Shown: positions 11,335-45,700 of the stretch, one piece after another
How positions within the stretch are numbered: the first letter of the stretch is position 1
How the letters are laid out: every line of letters starts with the position of its first letter
Assembly: GCA_949361645.1 (NCBI GenBank)
Contig: OX442436.1
Location: forward strand, 6,674,862-6,738,861
Length of the DNA: 64,000 nucleotides
Direction of reading: 5' to 3'
From: Spongilla lacustris
Taxonomy: Eukaryota; Porifera; Demospongiae; Spongillida; Spongillidae
Program-made: the position numbers and the translations under genes
Notes under the pieces: generated by a model
Seen by the model: the letters and a program-made list of their open reading frames with translations, nothing else
Databases searched by the model: none
What the model was told of the DNA's origin: nothing

Positions 11335-13947
11335 ATGGTGGGTGTCCGTTTACGGTTGTTATCGATACTAACTATTCAACAGTTCAGTAAGTGCTTTGAG
11401 ATTTTGTGGAAGGTGGGGGGTTCATTGATGACTTGTGGTGCCAACAGCGCTCGCTAGGAGCCTGCTGTGTCCCCCCGGCAGCCTGCCTTACCCGCCAACC
11501 TCGTGCGCCAGCTTTGGAGAGGAACCCAACGGTTTTGGTGCAGCTCAAGCACGGTGCGCGTTAGATGGAGGTGCACTGCTGTCTGTTGGCAATTCGGTAC
11601 AATTGACGGTGGCATTACGGTACGTAGAATCGCTGGGACAAGTGGAGTCCGCTTATTGGATTAATGTTAGCGGCGCACTGGCATCTCAAGGGGGGCAGTG
11701 TGCCGCCATTCGAAATGCAACACTTCTTACCACGGTAAATTGCAGCCAACCTCTGTCAAGACTCTGTCAAATCAACTATACAGGTAACGATAGAGGGCAA
11801 TGGTAATATGTGCCGCTACTGTGTGTGTGTCCACCTAGCCACACCCACCGTCTCCATGAGGGCCACGCCTACTAGCCCTGTGGCGGGCGCAGCTGTTACG
11901 CTGACCTGTTCCTACAGTAACAGTACCTCAGTCAGCTTGCAGAAGGATGATGTGCCCGTCAACACCTCCACTGTCCCCCTTAATGCCTCCTCATCACAGC
12001 TCAGCCTAACACTGGCCAGTATCCAGGCTGGCCGCTATGACTGTGTGGCTAGTAACCCTCTGGGAGCTGTGAAGTCCAACGCCATAGTCATACCAGCAGG
12101 AGGTATGGAAGAGGGAGATTGCATGCTTTAGTTTAACCCCTTAACCACCTCAGGTTCTACCACCATTGCTCCCATCACCTTAACGCTGAATGGTGCTACC
12201 ACAAACACCTTACCTCTTGGTACCATCTTCAACATCACCTGCTCCACCTCATCCTCTGTCTCCTGGACCTGGTTCAGAAATGGTCTCCCTCTCTCCCCCT
12301 TCTCCCCCTCCTCCCCTAGCTCCATCACTGTGATTGACTTCACCACATACGACACCTCTGGATTCTACCAATGCAGGGCTTTGGACCCCTCCTCCAACAG
12401 TAATATCATTGCACATATCCTGGTTCTGGCTACAGGTGAGCTCCCATTAGAACTGGGTTATCTTACATGTTTTCTCTAACAGGTGGTATCCCAGCGATAG
12501 TGGATGATGTACTTGTGGAGGCGTGGTCCCGATCTGAGCTGCAGGTTCTGTGGTACCCTCCCTATCGACCCAACACAGACCTGGCTCTCCTGCGCTATCA
12601 GTTCCTCTATGGGGTGGGGTCTCCAGACATCACCAGTTTTTCTAACGGATCGTTCCTGAAGCCATCAAACAGTCTCCCCCTCAATGGTACCATCCAGGGA
12701 CTGCTTCCTGGCACAACATACAAAGTAGTTGTGCTTGTCTGCTCAGAGATTGGTTGTGACTTTTCCCATTTGTTGCCTACCATGGCCATGACCTTTGGAC
12801 TAGGTTGGTTGCAATGGCTGTGCATGAATATAATTATATTCATGCACATATACATACATGTGCTTGGCTCTGCAGTTATTTTTATTCAGTGGTGGGGAGG
12901 GGGAGGAGGGGGCAATGATACATTGATGTACAAACTTGAAATTGCACGTTTTTCTAAATGACAACATCACGTGATGATTAGCGCTTGGTCAGCATGGTTT
13001 GTGAGGGGGTGGAGGGGACATGTGAGGGGGTGGGGGACATGTGAGGTGGTGGGGGTGGAGGGGACATGTGAGGGGGTAGGAGCATCTGGGGGTGCCCTCA
13101 TACCTCTCCACCCCTCACGTGTAGCTTATAACTCTACCGTGCAAGGTGTGATGCTGTCCTATGATGGAGCAGGGGGGGTATTTGTGGCCTGGGCACCCCT
13201 CATCCCCCATCCTCCTGAGGGGGCGGTGGCCTTCTACGAGGTGCAATATGGCAGCAGCTCCTACGATGAGGCAGTCACAGTGTACCCACCTTCCAACAGC
13301 GTGCATCTAATTGGTGTCACAGATATTTACAAGGTCAGTCTTGTCTTGCCCCGCCCCCTGCTCCACCCCCTCCCCACCACACCTAGGCTAGGGTGAGGGC
13401 AGCTGTGAAGGTGAGGGTGGAGCCGGAGACGTATGACTACAATCAGTGGAGCCAGTGGGTGGAGCAGCCAACGGGGGCGTGGTCAGCAACCACCCCTAGT
13501 GCCGGTACTAAGGCCTGTCTTCTGACTGGTATGCTTTTATCTGCTGCCATTTTAACCCCTTAGTGCCCACAGGTGAGTGCACCATGCCCGCGGGCTATAG
13601 TTGCTAAGGAACCTGTTGCTGTCCTCTCCAGTCCAACCTGTGCCCACCACTGGGGGCGAGGCAGTCAGTCCACCTGTGGGTGTGGTCATTCCATCAGTGG
13701 TGGTGCCTGTAGTGGTGGTGATAGGTGTGTTAGGTGTGGGCGTGGCACTCCTAATTTGGTGCTATCGGCAGAGAAAAAACAGGTGGGTGTGGCAATGTAA
13801 TTTGATAACCATTTTGATGTTCATACATCAATTAATAGCACTGATCTAAACAATGATGTCATTGATGGCCCAACCAATGATGATGTCATTGATGACCCAA
13901 CCAATGACAAAGCTGTGCTGACCACCACTGGCACCACGAAGCTCTAA
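11335..13947 (+). CDS. Receptor A: CTLD-like + 2 Ig + 2 FN3 + TM + acidic tail
   Basis: Ten exons join in phase to 616 residues: 11335-11386, 11448-11783, 11839-12102, 12154-12435, 12483-12803, 13125-13333, 13387-13504, 13564-13572, 13632-13782 and 13839-13947. Exon 1 is a short N-terminal signal-like segment. Exon 2 is a C-type-lectin-like domain (LLCPPGSLPYPPTSCASF near its start, GGQCAAI and SRLCQINY at its end). Exons 3 and 4 are Ig-like domains (LTCSYSN and GRYDCVASN; NITCSTSS and GFYQCRA). Exon 5 and exons 6-7 are FN3-like, the second containing QWSQW. Exon 8 is a predicted 9-nt microexon. Exon 9 is a strongly hydrophobic TM followed by RQRKN. The tail has two DDVID/NDVID repeats. A surface adhesion or recognition role is inferred from domains only. 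The exon 7 donor could instead be at 13528, in the same phase. Confidence 0.75.
12838..12980 (+). mobile_element. MITE-like element, copy 1 (intron 5 of receptor A)
   Basis: About 140 bp containing cttggctctgcagttatttt and aaacttgaaattgcac. A close copy lies in opposite orientation at 13955-14105. No clear TIR or target duplication was seen. Confidence 0.55.
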
Positions 13948-13954
13948 TCATCAC

Positions 13955-14105
13955 TCATCACGTGGTGTTATCATTTAGAAAAACATGCAATTTCAAGTTT
14001 GTACAACCATGTATCATTGCCCCCCTCCCCCTCCCCCTCCCCCCCACCCCACCACTGAATAAAAATAACTGCAGAGCCATGCACATGTATGTATATGTGT
14101 AGAAG
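13955..14105 (-). mobile_element. MITE-like element, copy 2 (3' flank of receptor A)
   Basis: Inverted relative to the copy at 12838-12980. It shares cttgaaattgca, the poly-G/C core and ctgcagttatttttattcag. It starts about 8 bp after the receptor A stop codon, so it is probably in the 3' UTR. It contains aataaa near 14058 on the plus strand. Confidence 0.6.
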
Positions 14106-14347
14106 CAGATATAACTTCACAGCTACAATTTGGTGGGCATACGTCACTAGTCGTTTAGTGATGTGGAAACCATCATTGCTGCCAGCTAGAGCCACGTATT
14201 GGCGTTAATTAAATTACAATAGATCGCTCATTGTGCTATGTGAGGAGTGGATTAGACCTAATTGTGTTATACATCAATGGATATAGTTAATAGATATGAT
14301 TACAATTCCTGCATCTGGTATTTGTCCGTCTGTCACCAAACAATTCC

Positions 14348-17020
14348 ATGATCTCGCTGGTAACGCTTATACTCGCTATCTCTGTGGTGTCACAATGGAA
14401 AGGCGGTAAGTACACGTAGGCACAAGTACGTGTCCATTGTATCTTTCTGGTTCCCCTAAACAAATCTAAACACACGCACATGCGTACACAATTAACAGCG
14501 GCCGGCCTGACATGCCCACCTAGCTACAGGCCCAACGGCTCCACGCGGTGTGTCTACGTCGTTAACAACCAAACAGCCAGTGCTACAGCCGCGGCCGCCG
14601 CGTGTGGTCCGAACCCTCTGGTGGACGTCCAGGACCTAGTCCAGTATACTAACCTTAAGCTATACCTTCAAGTCCAGGGCACGCCCCTCGCCTCCTACTG
14701 GACGCAGTACAACTACAACGCGGGGGTCCTTACACCCTCCTCCGCCATTGTGGGCAACGCAAGTAACTTCAATGGCAGTTCCAGCGGTAGTATGGGCCAG
14801 TGTGTGGCCATTCAGCAACAGGGTCTGTTTGTTCTCACCCCATGTTCAAATACCCTTCCCTTCATCTGTGTCGGCGATACCCAAGGTACTGCAGTGGAGG
14901 TGTACAGGTGTGGGGATAACTGGCTTAAATATTATAATACCTTAATTCTCTGCAGCTCTAACCACACCCACCGTCTCCATAATTGCCACGCCCACTATGC
15001 TGACCTGTTCCTACAGTAACAGTACCTCAGTCAGCTTTCAGAAGGATGATGTGCCCATCACCACCTTCACTGTCTCCCTTAATGCCTCCTCATCAGTGCT
15101 CAGCCTAACACTGGCCAGTATCCAGGCTGGCCGCTATGACTGTGTGGCTGGTAACCCTCTGGGAGCTGTGAAGTCCAACGCCATAGTCATACCAGCAGGA
15201 GGTATGGAAGGGGGAGATTGCATGCTTTAGTTTAACCCCTTAACCACCTCAGGTTCTACCACCATTGCTCCCATCACCTTAACGCTGAATGGTGCTACCA
15301 CAAACACCTTACCTCTTGGTACCATCTTCAACATCACCTGCTCCACCTCTTCTTCTGTCTCCTGGACCTGGTTCAGAAATGGTGTCCCCCTCTCCTCCTC
15401 CTCCCCCAGCTCCATCACTGTGGCTGACTTCACCTCATACGACACCTCTGGATTCTACCAATGCAGGGCTTTGGACCCCTCCTCCAACAGTAATGTCATA
15501 GCACAGATCCTGGTCCTGGCTACAGGTGAGCTCCCATTAGAATCTCCCTGCTCCACTGGATAATGCTCTCCTCTCAGATGGTGTACCTGGGCCTGTGGAC
15601 TCCGTGTTTGTGTCCCCCTCCTCCCAGACTGGCATGGTGGTGAACTGGGTCCCTCCCTCCAATCCTAACACTGACCAATCTCTGCTCAGATATACCATCA
15701 CATGGTGTAACTCCACCTCTCCACTGTGCATTACATCACCAGGGGTGGCCCCTGTGGCCAGTCTAGACCCCACCTTTGGTATAACCACACCCTTCCCAGG
15801 CCAGATGACCATCTCACAGCTGCAACCTGGTTCCCAGTACACAGTGCAGGTGGGTGTGGCCTCACCTGCTGGGGGTGTTGTAGCTCCTTTGTACAATGCA
15901 ACCATAGCAACATTTGGTACAGGTGGGTATTAAATAGGGTGTATAGTTTATGTGACCAGTTTCCACTATGTTCCTAGTTCCCAATGCCACTGTTCAGATT
16001 TACAATGTCTCTCGGACACAAGACAACACAACCATTGTAGCTTATTGGCAGCCATTGGTGACCACGCCCCCAGTTGGTCAGATAGTGCGGTACTATGTGG
16101 AGTACAGGGATGCCACCAAGGGGACATCCAACACTGTGTATGTGTCCAGTTCATACACCTACATTGTTCTCCAGAATCTAATGAATGCAAATAACTATGA
16201 GGTAATGGAGGCATGGCATGGGATGGCATTTAACCCTTTAGTGCCTAGATACGTGTGCAAGCAGCAGTCCAGACCTCATCCAATCCAAACACCTTTGGAT
16301 TGACCACACCCACCAATTGGACTGTCTCATCAGGAATAGCTCCCTTCAGTCAGTCCTGGTAGCCATGGTGACATGTATAGCTACTAATATGCCTCTCTTC
16401 ATACACACACATTTTTCTCTCCCTTAACCCAAATCACGCCATCCCCACACACATCCTCTCCACACATCCACACACCATCTCCACTCCACATACCATACTG
16501 ATATTTACCTATTCTCAACATCATACACACACCTTGTATGCCACCTTCACATGATCACCTTCACATGATCACATCACATGCACGCCTCATCACATGCGCA
16601 CCTCATCACATGCACACCTCATCACATGCACACCTCATCACATGCACACCTCATCACATGCGCACCTCATCACATGCACACCTCATCACATGCACACCTC
16701 ATCACTCTGTCTTCAGTACCCATCAGTAAGTACATACAGTTGTGCACACAATAAAACATGTAATAATGTTGTACCTCTCATCTTACAACCACTTCCACAT
16801 ACTGCAGTACCACGTAAGGGTGATTTAGCAGATAGTACTATGCACATGACACACACACACATACACACACACACACACAAACACACATACACACATACAC
16901 GCACACATCATCCTCTCCATATATCCAGCCACTGGGGGCAATTCCCACCAAGACAAGGTGCAAGTGCTCTCTTGGATGCTCTTCCTGTGTGCTTTCATCG
17001 CCTCGTTGTATTTGCTATGA
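14348..17020 (+). CDS. Receptor B: CTLD-like + 2 Ig + 2 FN3, predicted GPI-anchored
   Basis: Eleven pieces join in phase to 579 residues: 14348-14405 (signal peptide MISLVTLILAISVVSQ), 14499-14885 (CTLD-like: LTCPPSYRPNG, GQCVAI, CSNTLPFICV), 14956-15201 and 15253-15525 (Ig), 15578-15922 (FN3), 15978-16201 plus 16249-16348 (FN3), microexons 16717-16725 and 16808-16813, and 16929-17020. The last exon ends in a hydrophobic run (VLSWMLFLCAFIASLYLL) directly followed by TGA, with no basic stop-transfer and no cytoplasmic tail. This is the form of a GPI-attachment signal (inference; a tail-less TM is the alternative). Compared with A and C, Ig1 lacks a 24-bp in-frame stretch (SPVAGSAV). Confidence 0.75.
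16560..16708. repeat. 16-bp minisatellite before a microexon
   Basis: The unit is catcacatgcacacct, about nine copies. The array stops 8 bp before the acceptor ctgtcttcag of the 9-nt microexon in receptor B. Confidence 0.95.
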
Positions 17021-17312
17021 ACTTTGTGTGTGTGGAGGGGGGGGGGGGGAGGGGGGGGAGGAAATAAGAAATTACAATTACATATTTGTTGGATGAAAGA
17101 AAGGAGGGGATTGGGGGATCATATTTGAAGTGATATAAGAGCATTCAAGATTAATTCTGGTTCAGTAGCTAGAGGTACATACGTTAATCACGAATTAATT
17201 CGGCATGCGCGCGCGCATGGTAATATTTTAAAGTTAATTAATTGTTTTGCCGCTTATCGTATATACCGTATATATGCAGTAATATTGCTAAAATGATAGC
17301 TATATTATTACA

Positions 17313-20300
17313 ATGACACGTACACACAGATCCTTAGCACTGATAATTCTTGCTGCACTTTGGAAAGAAGGTAATTTATTTTAAAAACTTAGTTGTTATG
17401 TGTTTAATTGCCATTTTTCTACATAACTCACACGAACCACGGTAGCCATTGGCCTGACATGCCCACCTAGCTACAGGCCCAACGGCTCCACGCGGTGTGT
17501 CTACGTCGTTAACAACCAAACGGCCAGTGCTACAGCCGCGGCCGCCGCGTGTGGTCCGAACCCTCTGGTGGACGTCCAGGACCTAGTCCAGTATACTAAC
17601 CTTAAGCTATACCTTCAAGTCCAGGGCACGCCCCTCGCCTCCTACTGGACGCAGTACAACTACAACACGGGGGTCCTCACACCCTCCTCCGCCATTGTGA
17701 GCAACGCAAGTAACTTCAATGGCAGTTCCAGCGGTAGTACGGGCCAGTGTGTGGCCATTCAGCAACAGGGTCTGTTTGTTCTCACCCCATGTTCAAATAC
17801 CCTTCCCTTCATCTGTGTCAGCGATACCCAAGGTACAGTGGCTTAAAATATAGTTTCTCATGCCATGACATAATGTATAGGGCATCATGGCACGAGACTA
17901 GCTTAAATATAATACCTTCTCTGCAGCTCTAACCACACCCACCGTCTCCATAAGTGCCACGCCCACTAGCCCTGTGGCGGGCTCAGCTGTTACGCTGACC
18001 TGTTCCTACAGTAACAGTACCTCAGTCAGCTTGCAGAAGGATGATGTGCCTGTCAACACCTCCACTGTCTCTCTTAATGCCTCCTCATCACAGCTCAGCC
18101 TAACACTGGCCAGTATCCAGGCTGGTCGCTATGACTGTGTGGCTGGTAACCCTCTGGGAGCTGTGAAGTCCAACACCATAGTCATACCAGCAGGAGGTAT
18201 GGAAGAGGGAGATTGTATGCTTTAGTTTAATCCTTTAACCACCTCAGGTGCTACCACTATTGCTCCCATCACCTTAACACTGAATGGTGCTACCACAAAC
18301 AGTCCAGTCACCTTACCTCTTGGTACCATCTTCAACATCACCTGCTCCACCTCTTCTTCTGTCTCCTGGACCTGGTTCAGAAATGGTGTCCCCCTCTCCC
18401 CCTCCTCCCCCAGCTCCATCACTGTGGCAGACTTCACCTCATACGACACCTCTGGATTCTACCAATGCAGGGCCTTGGACCCCTCCTACAACAGTAATAT
18501 CATAGCACAGATCCTGGTTCTGGCTACAGGTGAGCTCCCGTTAGAATCTCCCTGCTCCACTGGATAATGCTCTCCTCTCAGATGGTGTACCTGGGCCTGT
18601 GGACTCCGTGTTTGTGTCCCCCTCCTCCCAGACTGGCATGGTGGTGAACTGGGTCCCTCCCTCCAATCCTAACACTGACCAATCCCTGCTCAGATACACT
18701 ATCACATGGTGTAACTCCACCTCTCCATTGTGCATTACATCACCAGGGGTGGCCCCTGTGGCCAGTCTAGACCCCACCTTTGGTATAACCACACCCTTCC
18801 CAGGCCAGATGACTATCTCACAGCTGCAACCTGGTTCCCAGTACACAGTGCAGGTGGGTGTGGCCTCACCTGCTGGGGGTGTTGTAGCTCCATTGTACAA
18901 TGTAACCATAGCAACATTTGGTACAGGTGGGTATTAAATAGGGTGTGTAGTTTATGTGACCAGTTTCCTCTATGTTCCTAGTTCCCAATGACACTGTTCA
19001 GATTTACAATGTCTCTCGGACACAAGACAACACGACCATTGTAGTCTATTGGCAACCATTGGTGACCACGCCCCCAGTTGGTCAGATAGTGCGGTACTAT
19101 GTTGAGTACAGGGATGCCACCAAGGGGACATCCAACACTGTGTATGTGTCCAGTTCATACACCTACATTGTTCTCCAGAATCTAATGAATGCAAATAACT
19201 ATGAGGTAATGGAGGCGTGGCATGGGATGGCATTTAACCCTTTAGTGCCTAGATACGTGTGCAAGCAGCAGTCCAGACCTCATCCAATCCAAACACCTTT
19301 GGATTGACCACACCCACCAATTGGACCTTCTCATCAGGAATAGCTCCCTTCAGTCAGTCCTGATAGCCATGGTGACATGTATAGCTACTAATATGCCTCT
19401 CTTCACACACACACATGCCCCACCCTTCACACACACATGCCCCACCCTTCACACACACATGCCCCACCCTTCACACATATGCCCCACCCTTCACACACAT
19501 GCCCCACCCTTCACACACACATGCCCCACCCTTCACACACACATACCCCACCCTTCACACATATGCCCCACCCTTCACACACATGCCCCACCCTTCACAC
19601 ACATGCCCCACCCTTCACACACATGCCCCACCCTTCACACACACATGCCCCACCCTTCACACACACATACCCCACCCTTCACACACATGCCTCACTGATC
19701 ACACACATGCCCCACCCCTCACACACGTCTTCACATTCAGTACCATCAAGTAAGTCTTTTCCCATGTCTCCTTCCTGGTCCTTACCTGCATTCCTCCTCC
19801 CCACTCCTTACCTGTGACCCTGCTACCTGCCTTCTCTTCCTGTAGTACCACGTAAGTGTTCCATTGAATGGTACCCTTCCCCCATAGCTACTAATGGTAC
19901 CCTTCCCCCATAGCTACTAATGGTACCCTTCCCCCATAGCTACTAATGGTACCCTTCCCCCATAGCTACTAATGGTACCCTTCCCCCATAGCTACTAATG
20001 GTACCCTTCCCCCATAGCTACTAATGGTACCCTTCCCCCATAGCTACTAATGGTACCCTTCCCCCATAGCTACTAATGGTACCCTTCCCCCATAGCTACT
20101 AATGGTACCCTTCCCCCATAGCTACTAATGGTACCCTTCCCCCATAGCTACTAATGGTACCCTTCCCCCATAGCTACTAATGGTACCCTTCTCCCATAGC
20201 TACTAATGGTACCCTTCTCCCATAGCTACTAATGATACCCTTCCCCCCATAGCTACTAATGGTACCCTTCTCCCATAGCTACTAATGGTACCCTTCCCCC

Positions 20301-21587
20301 CATAGCTACTAATGGTACCCTTCCCCCCATAGCTACTAATGGTACCCTTCCCCCATAGCTACTAATGGTACCCTTCCCCCATAGCTACTAATGGTACCCT
20401 TCTCCCATAGCTACTAATGGTACCCTTCCCCCCATAGCTACTAATGGTACCCTTCTCCCATAGCTACTAATGGTACCCTTCTCCATAGCTACTAATGGTA
20501 CCTTTCTTCCATAGCTACTAATGGTACCCTTCTCCATAGCTACTAATGGTACCCTTCTCCCATAGCTACTAATGGTACCCTTCTCCATAGCTACTAATGG
20601 TACCCTTCTCCATAGCTACTAATGGTACCCTTCCCCCATAGCTACTAATGGTACCCTTCTCCATAGCTACTAATGGTACCCTTCTCCATAGCTACTAATG
20701 GTACCCTTCCCCCATAGCTACTAATGGTACCCTTCTCCATAGCTACTAATGGTACCCTTCCCCCATAGCTACTAATGGTACCCTTCTCCATAGCTACTAA
20801 TGGTATCCTTCCCCCCATAGCTACTAATGGTCATAGCTACTAATGGTACCCTTCTCCATAGCTACTAATGGTACCTTTCTTCCATAGCTACTAATGGTAC
20901 CCTTCCCCCATAGCTACTAATGGTATCCTTCCCCCCATAGCTACTAATGGTCATAGCTACTAATGGTACCCTTCTCCATAGCTACTAATGGTACCTTTCT
21001 TCCATAGCTACTAATGGTACCCTTCCCCCATAGCTACTAATGGTACCTTCCCCCATAGCTACTAATGGTACCCTTCCCCCATAGCGACTAATGGTATCCT
21101 TCCCCCATAGCTACTGGTACTGGCTCTAATGGTGGTTTAGGTACTCCAGTGGACAGTAGTGTGGTGGCTCCTGCAGTGATTGTGCCTGTGGTTGTCGTGG
21201 CAACCGTGGTAGTGGTAGCCATAGTAGCAATCATCATTTGGCTTAAAAGGAAATCAAGGTGGGTACTAATTAGAATGTAGCCAGCTGCACCATTATTTCT
21301 GCATGTTCTGTTATCTAGATACAAACATTTGGTAGTGTTTTAGGTTACATGTCATTGTTTTTGTAACCTAGCTATGACAAACGCTTGTACAGTATCTAAC
21401 GGAACATGTATGGTTTGCTTCATAAATCGAACATGGGGAAAGAAAAAAAAAAATCTACTGATGCCATGGACCATCACATACATAATTTGCCCCCCACTTT
21501 AGTGTCTATCACACCAGCAAACCATCTGATGCTACTGATGGAGCTTACGACATAAAACTCATGCCAGCTGATAACGAGGGAGACTAG
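17313..21587 (+). CDS. Receptor C: CTLD-like + 2 Ig + 2 FN3 + TM + short tail
   Basis: Twelve pieces join in phase to 637 residues: 17313-17370 (signal peptide MTRTHRSLALIILAALW), 17446-17832 (CTLD-like), 17927-18196 and 18248-18529 (Ig), 18582-18926 (FN3), 18982-19205 plus 19253-19352 (FN3), microexons 19741-19749 and 19846-19851, 21111-21258 (TM: long Val/Ile run ending IIIWLKRKS) and 21503-21587 (tail with YDIKLMP, stop TAG). Most exons and even the short introns are nearly identical to receptor B, indicating recent duplication or gene conversion. The intron before the TM exon is filled by a splice-acceptor satellite (19865-21107) that could yield soluble forms. Function is not known; the tail Tyr residues could be docking sites (speculative). 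Confidence 0.75.
19395..19735. repeat. ~22-bp minisatellite before a microexon
   Basis: The unit is cccttcacacacatgcccca, about fifteen copies with small length variation. It ends 10 bp before the acceptor tcacattcag of the 9-nt microexon in receptor C. Confidence 0.95.
19865..21107. repeat. 26-bp splice-acceptor satellite, ~47 copies
   Basis: The unit is gctactaatggtacccttcc followed by cccata (25-27 bp). Each unit has the branch-point-like TACTAAT, a pyrimidine tract and CATAG. The array ends exactly at the acceptor of the TM exon of receptor C (tcccccatag, 21101-21110). The exon itself starts CTACTGGTACTGG, resembling the unit. Confidence 0.97.
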
Positions 21588-21670
21588 TGTGGTGGGTGCA
21601 GACACGCCATGTATACACAATCTCAGTTCAAGAAAGGAAACCTTTGTGTGTGTTATGATAATCTAGTCAC

Positions 21671-22294
21671 TTATAAATCTGTATTGGTATTGCTTTGCAA
21701 CAATTGAGCTATTGCATAGGTAATATATTCAAACGGTTCATTCTGCGTGAAGAACTGTTTCACGTGACCATCCTTATCCACCAAGTATTTGCAGAAATTC
21801 CACTTGGGGGTGTTGCCGCTTGACCCCGTAAGAAATTCATATACGGAGCTAGCGCGCTCACCCGTGACATCTATTTTGCTAAAAAGCGGGAATTTTGCCC
21901 CGTAATTCTCCGCAAACTGAATTATTTCCCTCATTGTGCCCGGTTCCTGGTCGCCAAATTGGTTGCAGGGAAAGGCCAGAACGGTAAAGCCTTGTGCATT
22001 GAACTTGCGCTGCAGCTGGACGAGACCTCTGTAATTGACATCAGTGTAGCCACACTGACTGGCTACGTTTACGACTAGAGACACCTGCGCGGGATATATA
22101 TGCATATTAAGTGCACGTGCCAGCCAGGCAATTAATAATAAAATTACCTTTCCTCTGTATTGTTCTAGAGATACCACGTTTCCGAAGGCGTCGTGAGCCG
22201 TTAGCGAGTAAAAGTCTACTGCGTGAGAAGCAGTGGACATAAATACGAGCAGTACTACATGAGTTATGGACTTCATAATTGTAGACAATGACAA
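21671..22294 (-). CDS. Secreted/ER glutathione peroxidase, Cys type (GPX7/8-like)
   Basis: Two minus-strand exons join at phase 0: 22148-22276 (ATG at 22276; an alternative upstream ATG at 22294) and 21671-22084, giving 180 residues from the second Met. An N-terminal hydrophobic signal (HVVLLVFMSTASHA) is followed by the GPx fold. The peroxidatic Cys is in NVASQCGYTD, the Gln in AFPCNQFGDQEPG, and the Trp-Asn in KWNF, so the C-Q-W-N tetrad is complete with Cys instead of selenocysteine. The absence of the dimer loop and the signal peptide fit the GPX7/8 group, whose known members reduce peroxides in the ER. The C-terminus NTDL only weakly resembles a KDEL-type retrieval signal. The gene is divergent from the JmjC gene, about 100 bp between starts. 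Confidence 0.9.
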   Translation of the reverse strand: MSLSTIMKSITHVVLLVFMSTASHAVDFYSLTAHDAFGNVVSLEQYRGKVILLLIAWLARALNMHIYPAQVSLVVNVASQCGYTDVNYRGLVQLQRKFNAQGFTVLAFPCNQFGDQEPGTMREIIQFAENYGAKFPLFSKIDVTGERASSVYEFLTGSSGNTPKWNFCKYLVDKDGHVKQFFTQNEPFEYITYAIAQLLQSNTNTDL

Positions 22295-22395
22295 TGCGTG
22301 ACGTCACAATGTACCGCGCGTACATGTAATTGGGAAAAGTATTTAAGTATATTAATATCTGGTGGGCGTGTGTGTTGTTTGAAATCCCCATCAAC

Positions 22396-35376: not shown

Positions 35377-36564
35377 TTAACTACACTGTTTGACTTGATA
35401 TCCAGTGATGGCTGTATCAAGTGGAATGGACATAGCACCACTCTGTGACCCTATGCTTAGACTTGTGACACACCCAGCAACACCTGCTGGTAGGATCCCT
35501 CTTGTCACACTTGGCACATTAGGTGCACCACCTGGGCATCAATTGCAAACAGTGAAAATGCATTAATGAAGAGGGAGGAGCCATCACATTACCTAGATAC
35601 ATGACATCATTTGAGCCTATGTCAAGAGAGTAGTCAGGTGGGGGGGAACTTCCAATGACATCACTCTGACCGCTCACAGACACTGTGCCTTGGCTTAACA
35701 TCCTGAATAATGGCCAAGATTTAGTGGGTGCACTGTTGTCATGCCAACATACCTGCTACATGTGATGGTGTACTGCTGTCCAATGATCAGTGGTTGTGAG
35801 GAAAAAATGGGTGTGGTAGAGGATCCAAGGTTATAGCTGCAGGGAAGTGAGAAATGCATCAGTGTGTGGAAGCTAACATTGTCATTGTTCCCCTCAGCAC
35901 TTATGGACCCTAACACTTATCCTCACCCCCTCAGCACTTATGGACCCTAACACTTATCCTCACCCCCTCAGCACTTATGGACCCTAACACTTATCCTCAC
36001 CCCCTCAGCACTTATGGACCCTAACACTTATCCTCACCCTCTCAGCACTTATGGACCCTAACACTTATCCTCACCCCCTCAGCACTTATGGACCCTAACA
36101 CTTATCCTCACCCCCTCAGCACTTATGGACCCTAACACTTATCCTCACCCCCTCAGCACTTATGGACCCTAACACTTACCCTCCCTTTTTGTCTGTATGC
36201 CAAACCATACACTAACCTAAATATTACACTTCCATCGCTCAGTCCAATGAAAAGATAGTCCCCAATGCTATCAGGTGGCTGAAGAGAATAGAGTATCCAA
36301 TAGTATACAATGGTATCCAACAATTAAAAAAAGTACTTACAGGACCAATATAGACAAGCAGTCCATTAGGTGACTCTGGTGTGAATACCACCTGAACATC
36401 TGTTGAAATAGCCAAGTTCTTGGGAGCAGGATACCTCAGATATCCAAGTGACGAAAAGTTGGCAGTATTGAAGGTAACCTCTGTTCAAGGCAGAGTGGGA
36501 GATAATTAGCATATTCCATCCAGAACATGTAGAGTACCTCCACAGTGAAGCCAAGTACACACAT

Positions 36565-36708: not shown

Positions 36709-39700
36709 GACTCACTTTGGCTACAGGTATCTCCTCCACCATAAGGCAATGAACACACACAGCTCTGTCCCAGAGCAGCACTTGCGTTGACCAAACACTG
36801 CCCACCATTCAAACACAAGCTGCCTGTAAGCTTATTACAAGGTGTCATCTCACAAAGACTACCAGAGAATCCTGGAGAACACAAGCATGCGCCCATGTTG
36901 CTGGTGTTAGAGGTACATGTTCCTCCATTGAGACATGGCTGTTTGGGACAGGAACACTCACCCACGCCCATTCCCCCTAATGCCCCACCCACTAGGTCCA
37001 ATGGTTGGGGGGGACTTCCAAGGGTCACAGTTCTGATGCATCCATAGAAGCCATTACCCACTCCCACCTGCTTGATTACAGTGGAGTAATTGGCCACACC
37101 CCCTAAGTAGAGGCTGTTCCCAAGCTGTAGGCTAGTGAAGGATCCGGGGGAGGTGCCCATCTGGGGGAGGGCACCATCCACAATCAACTGGCCGCTCTTT
37201 CCCTGTCTATAGGCCTCAATGGTGTGCCAATCATTCAGAGTTATGGGGGTGGAGCTCTGAATGGCTACTGGGCCCGTTCCCAGGTCAAACTGAAACTCAA
37301 CTATTCCAGCTTTCAGAACAAGGGCAATGAAATCCTTCTCCTTCAGTACCTGTGTGCTGTACAGAATCAATCCAGTGTCATTGATTGGTCGTATCTGAAG
37401 GGACAGTGATGTTATGGCAAATGCATTGGACAGTGGGGGGTAGGTGACATATGAGTCTCCCGAGAAAAGAGGTGTGGTGATGGCTGTGGAGGTAATGGTA
37501 ACATGAACACACACACATACGGATGAGGTATACCATACCTGATGCACAAGTTTTCCCAACATAGCCAAAGGGACATACGCAGTTGAAATCATATCCTATC
37601 TCTTGGCATGTTGCGTTTTGAGAGCATGGGGACCCGACACAGGGATGGAGGTGATACTCACATATATCCCCAGTGTAGCCAGGAGGGCAGTAACAGGAAA
37701 ATATATCATCCTCAAACCACTCACATGTGCCTCCATTCTGACACACCATACCACCACAATCACTAACATTAATGTGGCAAAGTGTTCCATTGAATCCTGG
37801 AGCACAGTTGCAGGTGAAATTGTTGAGTAGGTTAACACATGTGCCTCCATTCTGACATGTAACACTGGCACATTCATTGATGTTGAATTGGCAAAGTGGC
37901 CCACTAAATCCTGGAGCGCAGTTGCAGGAATAATTGTTGAGTAGGTTAACACATGTGCCTCCATTCTGACATGTAACGCTGGCACATTCATTGATGTTGA
38001 ATTGGCAAAGTGGCCCACTAAATCCTGGAGCGCAGTTGCAGGTGAAATTGTTGAGTAGGTTAACACATGTGCCTCCATTCTGACATGTAACGCTGGCACA
38101 TTCATTGATGTTGAATTGGCAAAGTGGCCCATTAAATCCTGGAGCGCAGTTGCAGGAATAATTGTTGAGTAGGTTAACACATGTGCCTCCATTCTGACAT
38201 GTAACACTGGCACATTCATTGATGTTGAATTGGCAAAGTGGCCCACTAAATCCTGGAGCACAGTTGCAGGAATAATTGTTGAGTAGGTTAACACATGTGC
38301 CTCCATTCTGACATGTAACGCTGGCACATTCATTGATGTTGAATTGGCAAAGTGGCCCACTAAATCCTGGAGCACAGTTGCAGGAATAATTGTTGAGTAG
38401 GTTAACACATGTGCCTCCATTCTGACATGTAACACTGGCACATTCATTGATGTTGAATTGGCAAAGTGGCCCACTAAATCCTGGAGCACAGTTGCAGGTG
38501 AAATTGTTGAGTAGGTTAACACATGTGCCTCCATTCTGACATGTAACGCTGGCACATTCATTGATGTTGAATTGGCAAAGTGGCCCACTAAATCCTGGAG
38601 CGCAGTTGCAGGAATAATTGTTGAGTAGGTTAACACATGTGCCTCCATTCTGACATGTAACACTGGCACATTCATTGATGTTGAATTGGCAAAGTGGCCC
38701 ACTAAATCCTGGAGCGCAGTTGCAGGTGAAATTGTTGAGTAGGTTAACACATGTGCCTCCATTCTGACATGTAACGCTGGCACATTCATTGATGTTGAAT
38801 TGGCAAAGTGGCCCACTAAATCCTGGAGCGCAGTTGCAGGAATAATTGTTGAGTAGGTTAACACATGTGCCTCCATTCTGACATGTAACACTGGCACATT
38901 CATTGATGTTGAATTGGCAAAGTGGCCCACTAAATCCTGGAGCACAGTTGCAGGAATAATTGTTGAGTAGGTTAACACATGTGCCTCCATTCTGACATGT
39001 AACGCTGGCACATTCATTGATGTTGAATTGGCAAAGTGGCCCACTAAATCCTGGAGCACAGTTGCAGGAATAATTGTTGAGTAGGTTAACACATGTGCCT
39101 CCATTCTGACATGTAACACTGGCACATTCATTGATGTTGAATTGGCAAAGTGGCCCACTAAATCCTGGAGCACAGTTGCAGGTGAAATTGTTGAGTAGGT
39201 TAACACATGTGCCTCCATTCTGACATGTAACGCTGGCACATTCATTGATGTTGAATTGGCAAAGTGCCCCACTAAATCCTGGAGCACAGTTGCAGGTGAA
39301 ATTGTTGAGTAGGTTAGCACATGTGCCTCCATTCTGACACACTGCCTGGCTGCATGGCTCAACACACTGTGTGGCCCCAAACCCTCCAATTGAATCAGCA
39401 ATGAGGTTCACTGCGAGCCCATTTATGGCCAAGCTTGCAACACACCCATCAAATCCATATGATGTCCCCACCAGAGGTGAAATGGCTGTGTAGTTCTCCA
39501 CACCTCCTAGCTGCACATCAGAGTACACGTTCAGCTGGGTCAGAGGATTTGGGGATTTCCCAGTGACAGTACTGTTTCCCACAGTAAGGCGGCCTTGCAT
39601 GAGGTTTCTGGCGGCTATAATGGTGTACCAACGGCCAAGGATGAGAGGTTTTGCGCTCTTCAGCTCAGCTGTACCTGAGCCTAGATTGAACCTGTAGTCC

Positions 39701-42700
39701 ACATAGCCACCAATGAGAGCAATGGAGACATAGTCATTAAAGGTGGTATTGGTGGTACTGGCAAACAGAATGAGGCCATCAGGGGAATATGGCTTAACCG
39801 TGACAGAGATATTGAGAGCAAAGAGAGGGTCTGCTATAGGCGGGTAAATGATGGATGACTTCTGATCAAAGTAGGCAGTGGTGATGTTCACTAGTAAGGA
39901 AAGACAGATCATCAATATCACCATGACAGCAAATATTGATGAGGATTCCAATTTTAAAACAAGCCTTGTGGGAATTTGTTTTCATCATGCTCACATGATG
40001 CCCCAGTTATAACTGGTCATGCTCACATGGCTACTTCTGCCACCCTCCCCCACATCAAGGCTATGTGATAATGTACTGGGGAGGAGGATATGGGGGGGGG
40101 GGGGGGGGGGGGGGGGAATTGCATGACCACATACAGAAGCATAACTCACCTATTTCATTACATGTTGGACCTTGACGACCAGAAACACACTTGCAGCTGA
40201 AGGTATCATTCACCACAGAGCAAATCCCGCCAAAAAGACAGGGGTTTGAAGCACATGGAAAGGCTAGAATCTCACACAAAGCCCCCTTGAAGCCATATGC
40301 ACAGTCACATACATATGTTCCCATGGCCATATTAACACACAGTCCACCATTTAGGCAAGTGACATTGTAGCAAGGCGGGGGAACACAGGGGCTTATGTCC
40401 ACCCCATACAAGGCATCTGAAACTATGCCGATAGCCTGCGCATTGATCCCCAGGTCCCTCATACACCCCATGAACCCAACACTGGTGCCTGTGGGGAGAG
40501 TAAGGTTAGAGCCACTGGGCACACCCCCCAAAAAGAGATGGGACGCAAGGTTAAAGGTCTGAGATGACGCCTGAGGGGTGGAGGCTCCGTCCACTTGGAG
40601 AACTCCCTCCTCCCCCTGCCACATCACTGTGATCGTATGCCATTTGCTGTCATTCACAGGTCCGGAGCTCGAGATGTGAAGGGTGCTGCTCCCTGAGTTT
40701 AGCACGAACACTGCACGCCCATCCTTCACCAAGATACATGCGTAACCACGGTTACCCGAAGCATAAAACACCACACCCGTTGGGGAAGATGTCAAAATAG
40801 TTATATTGAGCTCAAACGTGTTCTGGTTGGTGGTTGGAGGTGGTGTGTACACCAGGTATGAACTGCCGCTGAAGGATGGGGTGGAGATGGTGATTTCTGC
40901 AAAGCGTGAGAGAAGCAGGTTAGCAAGATGGCATCCGGCACGGTATGGCCCTCACCTTGCTCACACATGGCCCCTGTGTACCCCAGGGGACACAGGCAGA
41001 GGTACCCCTCTATGGATGATGGATCATCTACACACACTCCGTCCCACAAACAGGTACCAGGGACACAGGCGCCTCCCATGCAGGAAGTGATCTGGTTCCC
41101 AGCAACAGCACTCTGTGCAAGGGATACAACATTGCCTTCAAATGAGAAGTTGGCGATGCACCCAACAAGTCCAGGGAGGTGAGAAACAGAAGGGTTAAGA
41201 ATCGAGCTGTTTGCAGCCCCTCCCACCAATAGGAAAGGAATCACTGTCAGGTCCTGGGGCACAAGGATGGAAGCCTCAAAGGTCACCTGGGAGTCAATGC
41301 TCAGGTATATCTGGCCATACTCCATCCACACATAGATGTGATGCCAGGAGCCATCGCTCACAGGGTAGTCAGTGCTTTGAACTGCTATGGGGCCTGAACC
41401 TATATCAATCTGAAACCTGACTTGGCCACTGTTGAGGTACACACTCAAGTAGTCACCCGTGGAGGACTGCTGAGAGTACAGGATGAGGCCACTGTACTGT
41501 GACGTACGCAGCCAGAAGTCAAAGTAAAATTCGTACTGAACATCCATTGGATTTAGTGGCAGCACCAGATAGGAGGACCCTGCAAAGGCTGGGGCACTGA
41601 TAACTGGATGTGTACAGCAACGATATGATGTAAAGCATTGTTGTGTGTGATGTGGTGCATAGTGAAAATGAATGGGTATTAGTTATGAAAGGTGTTAGGT
41701 ATGAGTGAGGTTATGAAAGATGTTAGTTATGAGTGAGGTTATGAAAGATGTTAGTTATGAGTGAGGTTATGAAAGATGTTAGTTATGAGTGAGGTTATGA
41801 AAGATGTTAGTTATGAGTGAGGTTATGAAAGATGTTAGTTATGAGTGAGGTTATGAAAGATGTTAGTTATGAGTGAGGTTATAAAAGATGTTAGTTATGA
41901 GTGAGGTTATGAAAGGTGTTAGTTATGAATGAAGTTATGAATGGGTTTTAGTTACAAATGGATGTGAGGTTGTGATGCAGTGCATGTTGTGATGTGTGGA
42001 TGTCAAGGTATGTTCATGAGGTGGTAGGATAAAGACAAAACAAAACATGATTGTTAGCGGCAAAGGAGAGGTTGCTAACCTACCTTGTGAGCAGTCCTGT
42101 CCACTGTACCCTAGTGTACACAGACACTGGTAGCCAGATGGCACAGCAAGTCCCTCCAAACAGGTACCACTGTTGTGACAAGGGTTTGACGAGCAAGGAG
42201 ATGGGAGCATGGACTCACAGTTCACACCAGTAAAACCAGCTTTGCAGGTGCAGATGTGACCAGTCATCGTATTAGAACAGGTGCCATTATTACTGCAGAC
42301 ACCTGGGGAGCAGAAGTTTGACTGCTGGCAGCTGGTACCATTGTACCCAGGGGCACAGAGGCAGCTGTAGCCATTGGATTGGTTAGATGATGCAATGCAA
42401 GAGGCCCCATTATAACAGGGCATGGAGGCACAAGGGTTGTACACCTCACACATAAGGCCAGTGAAAGGGTACGGGCAGGTACAGTTCACACCAAAAGGAG
42501 AAGTTGGTGTGCATGTAGCACCATTCTGACAAGGGTTGTGCGTCAGACAGAGATTCACAGACGACTCACAGTAGATGCCAGTAAATAGACTGGTACAGTT
42601 GCACTGAAAGCTGTTGAGAAGGTTAACACATGTGCCTCCATTCTGACATGTAACACTGGCACATTCATTGATGTTGAATTGGCAAAGTGGCCCATTAAAT

Positions 42701-45700
42701 CCTGGAGCACAGTTGCAGGAATAATTGTTGAGTAGGTTAACACATGTGCCTCCATTCTGACATGTAACACTGGCACATTCATTGATGTTGAATTGGCAAA
42801 GTGCCCCACTAAATCCTGGAGCACAGCTGCAGGAATAATTGTTGAGTAGGTTAACACATGTGCCTCCATTCTGACATGTAACACTGGCACATTCATTGAT
42901 GTTGAATTGGCAAAGTGCCCCACTAAATCCTGGAGCACAGTTGCAGGAATAATTGTTGAGTAAGTTAACACATGTGCCTCCATTCTGACATGTAACGCTG
43001 GCACATTCATTGATGTTGAATTGGCAAAGTGCCCCACTAAATCCTGGAGCACAGTTGCAGGAATAATTGTTGAGTAGGTTAACACATGTGCCTCCATTCT
43101 GACATGTAACACTGGCACATTCATTGATGTTGAATTGGCAAAGTGCCCCACTAAATCCTGGAGCACAGTTGCAGGAATAATTGTTGAGTAAGTTAACACA
43201 TGTGCCTCCATTCTGACATGTAACGCTGGCACATTCATTGATGTTGAATTGGCAAAGTGCCCCACTAAATCCTGGAGCACAGTTGCAGGTGAAATTGTTG
43301 AGTAGGTTAACACATGTGCCTCCATTCTGACATGTAACACTGGCACATTCATTGATGTTGAATTGGCAAAGTGCCCCACTAAATCCTGGAGCACAGTTGC
43401 AGGTGAAATTGTTGAGTAGGTTAACACATGTGCCTCCATTCTGACATGTAACACTGGCACATTCATTGATGTTGAATTGGCAAAGTGCCCCACTAAATCC
43501 TGGAGCACAGTTGCAGGTGAAATTGTTGAGTAGGTTAACACATGTGCCTCCATTCTGACATGTAACACTGGCACATTCATTGATGTTGAATTGGCAAAGT
43601 GCCCCACTAAATCCTGGAGCACAGTTGCAGGAATAATTGTTGAGTAGGTTAACACATGTGCCTCCATTTTGACATGTAACGCTGGCACATTCATTGATGT
43701 TGAATTGGCAAAGTGGTCCACTAAATCCTGGAGCACAGTTGCAGGTGAAACTGTTGCCTTCTTCAATGCAGTCTCCTCCATTGTAGCAAGTTACATTAGA
43801 GCATGAATCGTTGTTCATCTTCTCACACAAAGCTCCCATGAACCCCAGTGGGCATAAACAGTTGAAGGTGCCAACATTGCCAGGATCAATACATGTTCCA
43901 CCATTTAGGCAAGGATGTTGATCACACAGGTTAGCTACAATAGTGCAGTTCTTTCCAGTGTATGCAGAGGGGCAAGTACAGCTGTAATCATGAACAAGGT
44001 CAGTACAACTTCCACCATTAGCACAGGGACTGGGCAGACAATCATTAATGTTTATTTGACAGTTTAGACCAGTGAACCCTGTAGCACACAAACACTCGTA
44101 GTTAGTGGGAAGAGGCACACAGAGCCCTCCATTGCTACACACTACTCCGTCACAATACGAGGTGTTACACAGTGGTCCTGTGTACCCAGCTTGGCAGCTG
44201 CAGGTATAGCTGTCTGCTGTCTTTGAACAGTTCCCATACACGCAGGGACTGGAAGCACAGGGGTCAACCGTGACCTGACACATAGCACCAGTGGTATGAG
44301 GTGGGCACACACACACAGGTCCCAGCAGGGACTGATTTGTGCAGGTACCACCATTTTGGCAGGGAGCTGATGCACAGTAATCGATCTGCTCAGAACAGGT
44401 TTGGCCAGTGTAACCTGCCTGACAGGTGCATTGGAAGCCGCTGACACTGTTAGCGCATAACCCTTCATGCTGACAAGGATTGCTGCTGCAGTCGTTGGTG
44501 GTAACATTGCAGCTGTCCCCAGTAAGCCCAGGTGGGCAAACACACCGGTGCATCCCCGATAGGGCAATGCATGTGCCACCATTCGTGCAGGGGTTACCAG
44601 CACAGTCTGTGATGTCACACTGACGCCCGCTGATGCCCTGTGGACATGTACAGGTGAAGTTATTAATTTGGTTAGTGCAGGTTGCTCCATTGTGGCAAGG
44701 CCCAGAGAGACAGTTGTTAACTATCACACTGCAGTTATTACTGAAGTAGCCTGGTGAGCAGGTACAACTGTAACTTCCCACTGTGTTGCTGCAGGTACCG
44801 CCATTCAGACAGGGGGTGGCTAGGCACTCATTCACGTCTTGGCTGCAGTTATAGCCTGTGAACCCAGGACTACAAGTACAGCTATAAGTAGGCCAGTTCG
44901 AATTACACGTGCCCATGTTCTGGCATGGACTGGAGAGACATGGGCTTTGTTGTACACTGCAGTTCTGCCCGGTATAATGTGGCGGGCACGTACAATTGTA
45001 ACCACCTGGTCCACTAGTACAGGTGGCATTGTTTGCGCAGGGACTGCCTATGCAGTAGTTCACTAGCTCGCAATTCCTCCCAGAGAATCCGGGAAGACAG
45101 CTGCAGCTGTAGTTTCCAACTGCATTTAAACACGTCCCGCCATTAGTACACGTGCTTACGTCAAGGCAGTTATTAACGATTATATCGCAGTATTTACCAG
45201 TGAAGCCATTCTTGCAGTAACATTGGGAGTTCGCGCATACTCCACCATTCTTGCAGGCGATTGATGCACATGGATCAGCGACGACGTCACACTGTGCACC
45301 AGTGTATCCAGGGGGACACATGCAAAGGTAGCTATTCACAAGCTGAACACAAGTGCCGTTGTTACAAGGGTTCGGCAAACAATTGTTGATCAGAATTTCA
45401 CATCTTGTCCCCGTGAAGCCAGGAGAACATGTGCAGGTAGCCGATTGGTTGGCTAATACGGTGCATATCCCATTGTTTTGGCAATAGCTGTTGCATGGCG
45501 ACGTGGAAGATATATTGCAAGTAGGACCACGAAACGCAAGCGGGCACACGCAAGTGTACTGGGCGATAAGGTCGACACAAATCCCCCCGTTTTGACACGC
45601 TCCGACGAAGCAGTCGTTGATATTGACCGCACACTGGGCCCCGGTGAAGCCTATTGGGCAGGTGCACTTGTAGCTGCCGACCGTGTTCGTGCATGTTCCG

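Follow-up and report, generated by a model that had tools for sequence, protein, structure and literature searches.

The closest described counterparts of the arrangement reported here are the "mirage" minisatellites of the amphioxus Adh3 and globin genes, in which tandem copies span an intron-exon boundary (PMC3087553). In Adh3 the minisatellite-like units measure 10-72 bp, while in BflGb6 the copies include the 3' end of the intron together with the 5' part of the exon; copies within a cluster evolve in concert, and splice signals recur in many units. RT-PCR suggested that regular splicing is left undisturbed there (PMC3087553). Human genes provide two further parallels. The VNTR in intron 18 of ABCA7 has a unit of 25 bp, with a reference copy number of 23.7, and begins exactly at a splice site; the repeated site is usable, giving a premature stop. 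However, it is the donor that is repeated there and not the acceptor, and the described effect of array length on splicing is skipping of exon 19 (PMC5954066). In human segmental duplications, minisatellite expansion in exons and at exon-intron boundaries alters gene structure, and the resulting internal tandem repeats can activate cryptic splice sites; these differ from the array described below in having a mean 30-bp unit in four copies, half of them in coding sequence (PMC2812944). Our literature search, whose reach left out most subscription papers, found no comparable array in a sponge.

Here we describe such an array in intron 9 of a receptor gene (receptor C) of Spongilla lacustris, located in a window of 64,000 nt, the whole stretch of DNA analysed. 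As in the mirages, it is built of tandem minisatellite units, and the unit joins the end of the intron to the start of the exon, a feature that depends on the gene model and involves a short exon part. The mirage kind is known from amphioxus; new here are the copy number (48 units versus 6 and 3 in two BflGb6 haplotypes; PMC3087553), the retention of an AG and a branch-like motif by all units, and a position before the membrane anchor such that every decoy is predicted, from sequence alone, to remove it. We consider it probable that the array is a mirage-type boundary minisatellite that offers many competent-looking decoys, allows some leakage and did not evolve as a switch. The features of the locus are listed below.

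Table. Features of the receptor C locus and of the intron 9 array (positions in the window)
Feature	Position	Strand	Basis or remark
Paralogue B	14348-17020	+	near-identical ectodomain, same 6-nt microexon, last exon with what we read as a GPI-type hydrophobic end
Receptor C exons 1-7	17313-17370, 17446-17832, 17927-18196, 18248-18529, 18582-18926, 18982-19205, 19253-19352	+	in-frame joining, Pfam, alignment with E. muelleri P0001 and P0002
Intron 7 of receptor C	19353-19740	+	contains AG-free 20-bp satellite (19408-19726) reaching the acceptor
Microexon 8, 9 nt, stalk residues IPS	19741-19749	+	phase preserved; gapless alignment to E. muelleri VPS
Microexon 9, 6 nt, TACCAC	19846-19851	+	same microexon in paralogue B at 16808-16813; aligns with E. 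muelleri
Intron 9, 1259 nt, nearly all array	19852-21110	+	gene model
Incomplete first unit; use of its AG would make a 36-nt intron	19867-19887	+	
48 tandem units, 16-27 bp each	19888-21110	+	
Eleven identical 26-bp units, donor-proximal end	19888-20173	+	
120-bp five-unit block, two copies	20794-20913, 20914-21033	+	unit string FGBEA FGBEA
Transmembrane exon 10, modelled authentic acceptor at 21110	21111-21258	+	start resembles array unit; E. muelleri alignment
Cytoplasmic tail exon 11, TAG at end	21503-21587	+	in-frame reading with exon 10

Three receptor genes are arranged in tandem at 11432-21587: A and C, which end in a transmembrane (TM) segment, and B, which has a GPI-type end. Receptor C comprises 11 plus-strand exons (17313-21587) that, when joined, read in frame for 637 residues. 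Its N-terminus is read by us as a signal peptide, and exons 1-7 carry a C-type-lectin-like exon, two Ig and two FN3 domains. In the joined protein, Pfam fn3 (52.1 bits, two stretches) and Ig_2 (49.8 bits, two stretches) score above their cut-offs, and Lectin_C stays below its cut-off of 22.6, with 17.9 bits in the whole protein and 22.2 from the lectin-like exon alone. The second FN3 domain is completed by exon 7, which the original prediction had left out: with this exon joined, fn3 reaches 31.4 bits against a cut-off of 25, and the preceding ORF taken without it matched no Pfam family. Exon 7 runs from phase 0 to phase 1, the two microexons preserve the phase, and the TM exon opens with the two bases left over from the split codon. 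The phase and the TM exon originally assigned to receptor C are right, and exons 10 and 11 read through in frame. An alternative poly(A) site within the array or close to it was rejected, the signals AATAAA and ATTAAA being absent from 19205-21700. A minus-strand ORF at 21671-22303, which by its motif we take to resemble glutathione peroxidase, faces receptor C in tail-to-tail orientation, with fewer than 100 bases separating it from the end of that gene.

The nearest relatives of the receptor C protein are the Ephydatia muelleri predictions EMCRGX_G018890, G018892 and G018893. Genes A, B and C are matched by these three (G018893, G018892 and G018890), all of them predicted models, compared at the protein level. 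The receptor C stalk IPSIPPTG aligns without gaps to VPSMPPTG of the predicted E. muelleri protein P0002, which likewise runs into a TM segment, so that the residues of the microexons, like the junction at 21110, are externally supported. Paralogue B and E. muelleri P0001 both end in a short hydrophobic tail, which we read as a GPI signal. Paralogues outside this locus were rejected by genome searches, in which the FN3 exon preceding exon 7 matched only B and C (E up to 1e-4); the search with the TM exon (E up to 0.01) matched only receptor C. Tandem gene clusters with variable introns are described as numerous in the Ephydatia genome (PMC7385117), and the tandem receptor locus fits this pattern.

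Altogether intron 9 contains 49 copies of CATAG between 19883 and 21110, which bound 48 units; the array of about 47 copies originally placed between the microexon and the TM exon holds in coordinates and structure. Most units are 26 bp long (29 units), and the others measure 25 bp (11), 27 bp (6) and 16 bp (2). They fall into ten types, of which the commonest accounts for 19 of the 48. The predicted composition of the unit, TACTAAT followed by a pyrimidine tract and CATAG, is borne out almost throughout, with CTAAT and CATAG in all 48 units and TACTAAT in 47; the tract lies between the branch-like motif and CATAG and is shortened in two units. The distance from the branch A to the AG, predicted as about 19 nt, is 19 nt in 29 units, 18 in 11, 20 in six (18-20 nt in 46 of 48) and 9 in the remaining two. 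In the gene model the TM exon has the last CATAG, at 21110, as its acceptor, in agreement with the expected end of the array.

The two ends of the array differ in character. The eleven identical donor-proximal units are probably its youngest part, and the acceptor-proximal part is varied and includes the duplicated 120-bp block; both features fit ordinary minisatellite turnover. The core CTACTAATGG is preserved in 46 of the 48 units and is more constant than the pyrimidine tract. Such a constant core could hint at constraint, but homogenisation explains it equally well, there being ten unit types, several of which differ by indels in a C run. Selection on the branch motif and AG is not supported by the variation among units, which offers too few independent variants. 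A 23-base unit core has 38 exact hits in the 248.6-Mb genome, all within this array, and a dispersed repeat family was rejected on this ground. The 16-base junction, with at most one mismatch, has 80 genome hits (65 forward, 15 reverse), including 48 in this array; one exact match lies elsewhere, on C21. A coding array was also rejected, with 30, 35 and 32 stops in the three forward frames, as was a chain of tiny exons, since the array contains neither a GTAAG nor a GTGAG donor. An alternate haplotype of S. lacustris (GCA_949361655.2) and public PolyA RNA-seq (ERR12708738) are named in the literature (PMC12141999).

The array was probably born by duplication of the exon boundary, as its unit takes in the opening bases of the exon. 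The start of exon 10 scores 7.0 against the unit, a value reached by one of 400 random stretches of gene C, and none of the exon starts at the remaining 18 acceptors of B and C exceeds 4.0. The shared exon bases are short: five exact ones, then five more past a 3-base gap. The Tandem Repeats Finder (TRF) array extends to 21115, 5 bases inside exon 10. Slippage or unequal exchange would have duplicated the intron end together with the first exon bases, and the array would then have grown mostly at its donor-proximal end. Its surroundings are rich in minisatellites, with 20 arrays covering 6038 of the 64,000 bases of the window and satellites filling 81 overlapping rows of the repeat listing. 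Elsewhere in the window, near-identical 114-bp tandem repeats occur at 37775-39339 (13.7 copies) and 42612-43745 (9.9 copies). A minus-strand ORF within the former reads as what we take to be EGF-like repeats, which suggests recent expansion inside coding sequence.

To describe site quality we used a rule of branch, tract and AG for a complete acceptor, defined post hoc after the array had been seen. Under this strict rule, 45 of the 48 decoys and the true site are complete, in line with the original prediction of complete acceptors in nearly every unit. The three poor decoys are the first AG, with its 36-nt intron, and the two sites with 9 nt between branch A and AG. Among the remaining 18 acceptors of B and C one satisfies the rule, and with the TM acceptor counted the tally is two of 19. 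In the 380 kb of control strand there are 41 complete sites (0.108 per kb) versus 46 in the 1.26 kb of intron 9, true site included. For estimating chance, the unit counts as one event because the units are copies: a shuffled unit yields a comparably complete acceptor in 209 of 20,000 trials. Two of 50 minisatellites (20 from the 64-kb window and 30 from 19 control stretches of 10 kb) carry a complete acceptor in at least half of their copies, where 0.17 would be expected from shuffled units.

Other measures are less flattering to the array. A small weight matrix trained on these other 18 acceptors, among which many are near-duplicates shared by genes B and C, gives array units -0.7 to 9.6, the real site 7.5 and training sites 3.1 to 13.5. 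The array is ordinary under this matrix, with most sites middling or low; at the matrix cut-off only six array sites counted, and the array was not the one of 43 that passed. By a simple pyrimidine score, 36 of the 49 array sites reach 5.1, 11 reach 3.5 and two -1.2, compared to a range of -2.8 to 6.7 for the 18 other acceptors. Judged by sequence, then, the decoys appear about as good as typical true acceptors and are not exceptional on every measure, and they include competent-looking alternative acceptors of the kind that belongs to a regulated acceptor switch.

The second minisatellite with complete acceptors lies at 35890-36183 (37 bp, 7.9 copies). It sits amid minus-strand ORFs, with its acceptor-like set on the plus strand; presumably its host gene is EGF/laminin-G-like. 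This array is probably antisense to the host gene and without splicing meaning, so acceptor-bearing units appear to arise without a splicing role as well. What points to the boundary origin in intron 9 is the position of the array at the modelled acceptor together with the unit-like exon start, and not rarity.

Which of these acceptors would be chosen is predicted differently by different rules. During scanning, the AG taken is the first one downstream of the branch point, and AGs closer than about 12-15 nt are sometimes bypassed (PMC1431707), so that a branch inside the array would select a decoy, the AG of its own unit. Among alternative sites collected in a database, competition between acceptors at least 20 nt apart favours the upstream one, a preference that is strong when the flanking introns are short and weaker when they are long (PMC9225289). 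The expectation for receptor C is mixed, because seven of its ten introns measure 47-96 nt and intron 9 measures 1259 nt, a length that may favour exon definition and so weaken the upstream preference. Introns with long AG exclusion zones and distant branch points (PMC1431707) obey the same scanning logic, and intron 9 is their opposite: 49 AGs lie ahead of its acceptor, compared with counts of 1-9 for the remaining introns of B and C. The exclusion-zone pattern is fitted by intron 7 of B (16349-16716) and of C. The two introns share their first part and then continue into unlike satellites of 16 bp and 20 bp, respectively, and the AG-free run up to the microexon acceptor is 334 nt in B and 354 nt in C, making both candidate distant-branch-point introns.

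Under the explanation that we prefer, in which the array is a leaky boundary minisatellite, some leakage into decoys is expected because they look the same as the true site, while enough transcripts would still take the last AG for the membrane receptor to be retained. At least some use of the last acceptor is to be presumed, since the TM and tail exons are intact and E. muelleri P0002 also reaches a TM segment. It is possible, but rather unlikely, that an array of the same boundary origin is inert filler, wholly passed over through exon enhancers, exon definition or structure; this reading overlaps with the preferred one, and the probabilities that we attach to the readings do not sum to one. 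The amphioxus precedent (PMC3087553) and the frequency of satellites across the window speak for it. Against it, first-AG scanning predicts that a branch point within the array is paired with its own unit's AG (PMC1431707), and six-unit folding is unremarkable (z -1.14, matched or bettered by 30 of 200 shuffles), so that structure concealing the sites was rejected as an obvious explanation.

Should a decoy be taken, the reading frame would close before the membrane helix in every case (48 of 48 upstream AGs), as had been predicted for a receptor cut short of the membrane. The proposed ending, PTNGTLPP followed by TAG in most units, stands in part: the TAG of the unit itself closes 29 of the 48 frames, and the exact peptide appears in 19 of these. 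Eleven decoys, in 25-bp units, stop at the TAA of the next unit, six stop after read-through of 27-bp units and two arise from 16-bp units. Contrary to the original prediction, the 27-bp units do not shift the frame; they keep it and run into the next unit. Nor is truncation tied to the phase set by the microexon. With 1, 2 or 0 nt carried in, the frame closes inside the array in 48, 48 and 47 of 48 cases, and no special phase is needed because the unit contains both TAG and TAA.

A stop far upstream of the last exon junction exposes an mRNA to decay, a rule established in vertebrates. The decoy stops lie 148-1345 nt upstream of that junction, which makes the decoy mRNAs candidates for nonsense-mediated decay and not straightforward sources of the soluble receptor first proposed; from the sequence, decay seems as likely an outcome as a soluble product. 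In the leaky-minisatellite explanation, leaked mRNAs would mostly be destroyed or would yield a little truncated ectodomain.

These consequences bear on whether copy number might set the rate at which splicing stops at decoys, and with it how much membrane receptor is made relative to truncated or decayed product. We regard such a length-tuned switch as improbable. Truncation by all 48 decoys, the short size of seven of the ten introns and the correlation of human ABCA7 VNTR length with exon 19 skipping (PMC5954066) are in its favour. Yet the decoy mRNAs carry the early stops described above, the 1259-nt intron may relax the upstream preference, amphioxus mirages reportedly leave splicing undisturbed (PMC3087553), and in ABCA7 the one-unit donor decoy stays at about 2%, independent of VNTR length (PMC5954066). 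More speculative, and in our estimate quite improbable, is a splicing rheostat that is inherited and may be unstable in the soma, in which each added unit supplies one more upstream acceptor, length sets the membrane share of C, and receptor dose differs between individuals or clones.

It is similarly doubtful, with only a small chance in our view, that receptor C is a hypomorph in which decoys nearly always win and membrane C is largely lost, its function being carried by B, with its GPI-type end, and by A, with its own TM segment. The 45 upstream sites of good geometry that precede the true acceptor would suit such a loss, and B is 95-98% identical to C across exons 2-7, gaps excluded. But exons 10 and 11 of C have plausible open frames, and their counterpart is present in one of the proteins predicted for E. 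muelleri; decay would be expected of a dead exon, though the loss could be recent. Across paralogues, in a comparison of conservation confined to B, the array is missing: the last intron of B differs from intron 9 of C, having (CA)n and no 26-bp array.

We thus favour a boundary minisatellite whose array did not evolve as a switch, and treat a regulatory role of the array, including tuning by length, as a possible hypothesis. With about 45 near-equal acceptors between one donor and one exon, the array represents a natural competition experiment and poses directly the question of how the spliceosome picks among identical sites. It would extend the mirage kind from amphioxus to sponges. Should the ratio of anchored receptor indeed depend on array length, receptor C would clearly exemplify control of a cell-surface protein by the length of a repeat.
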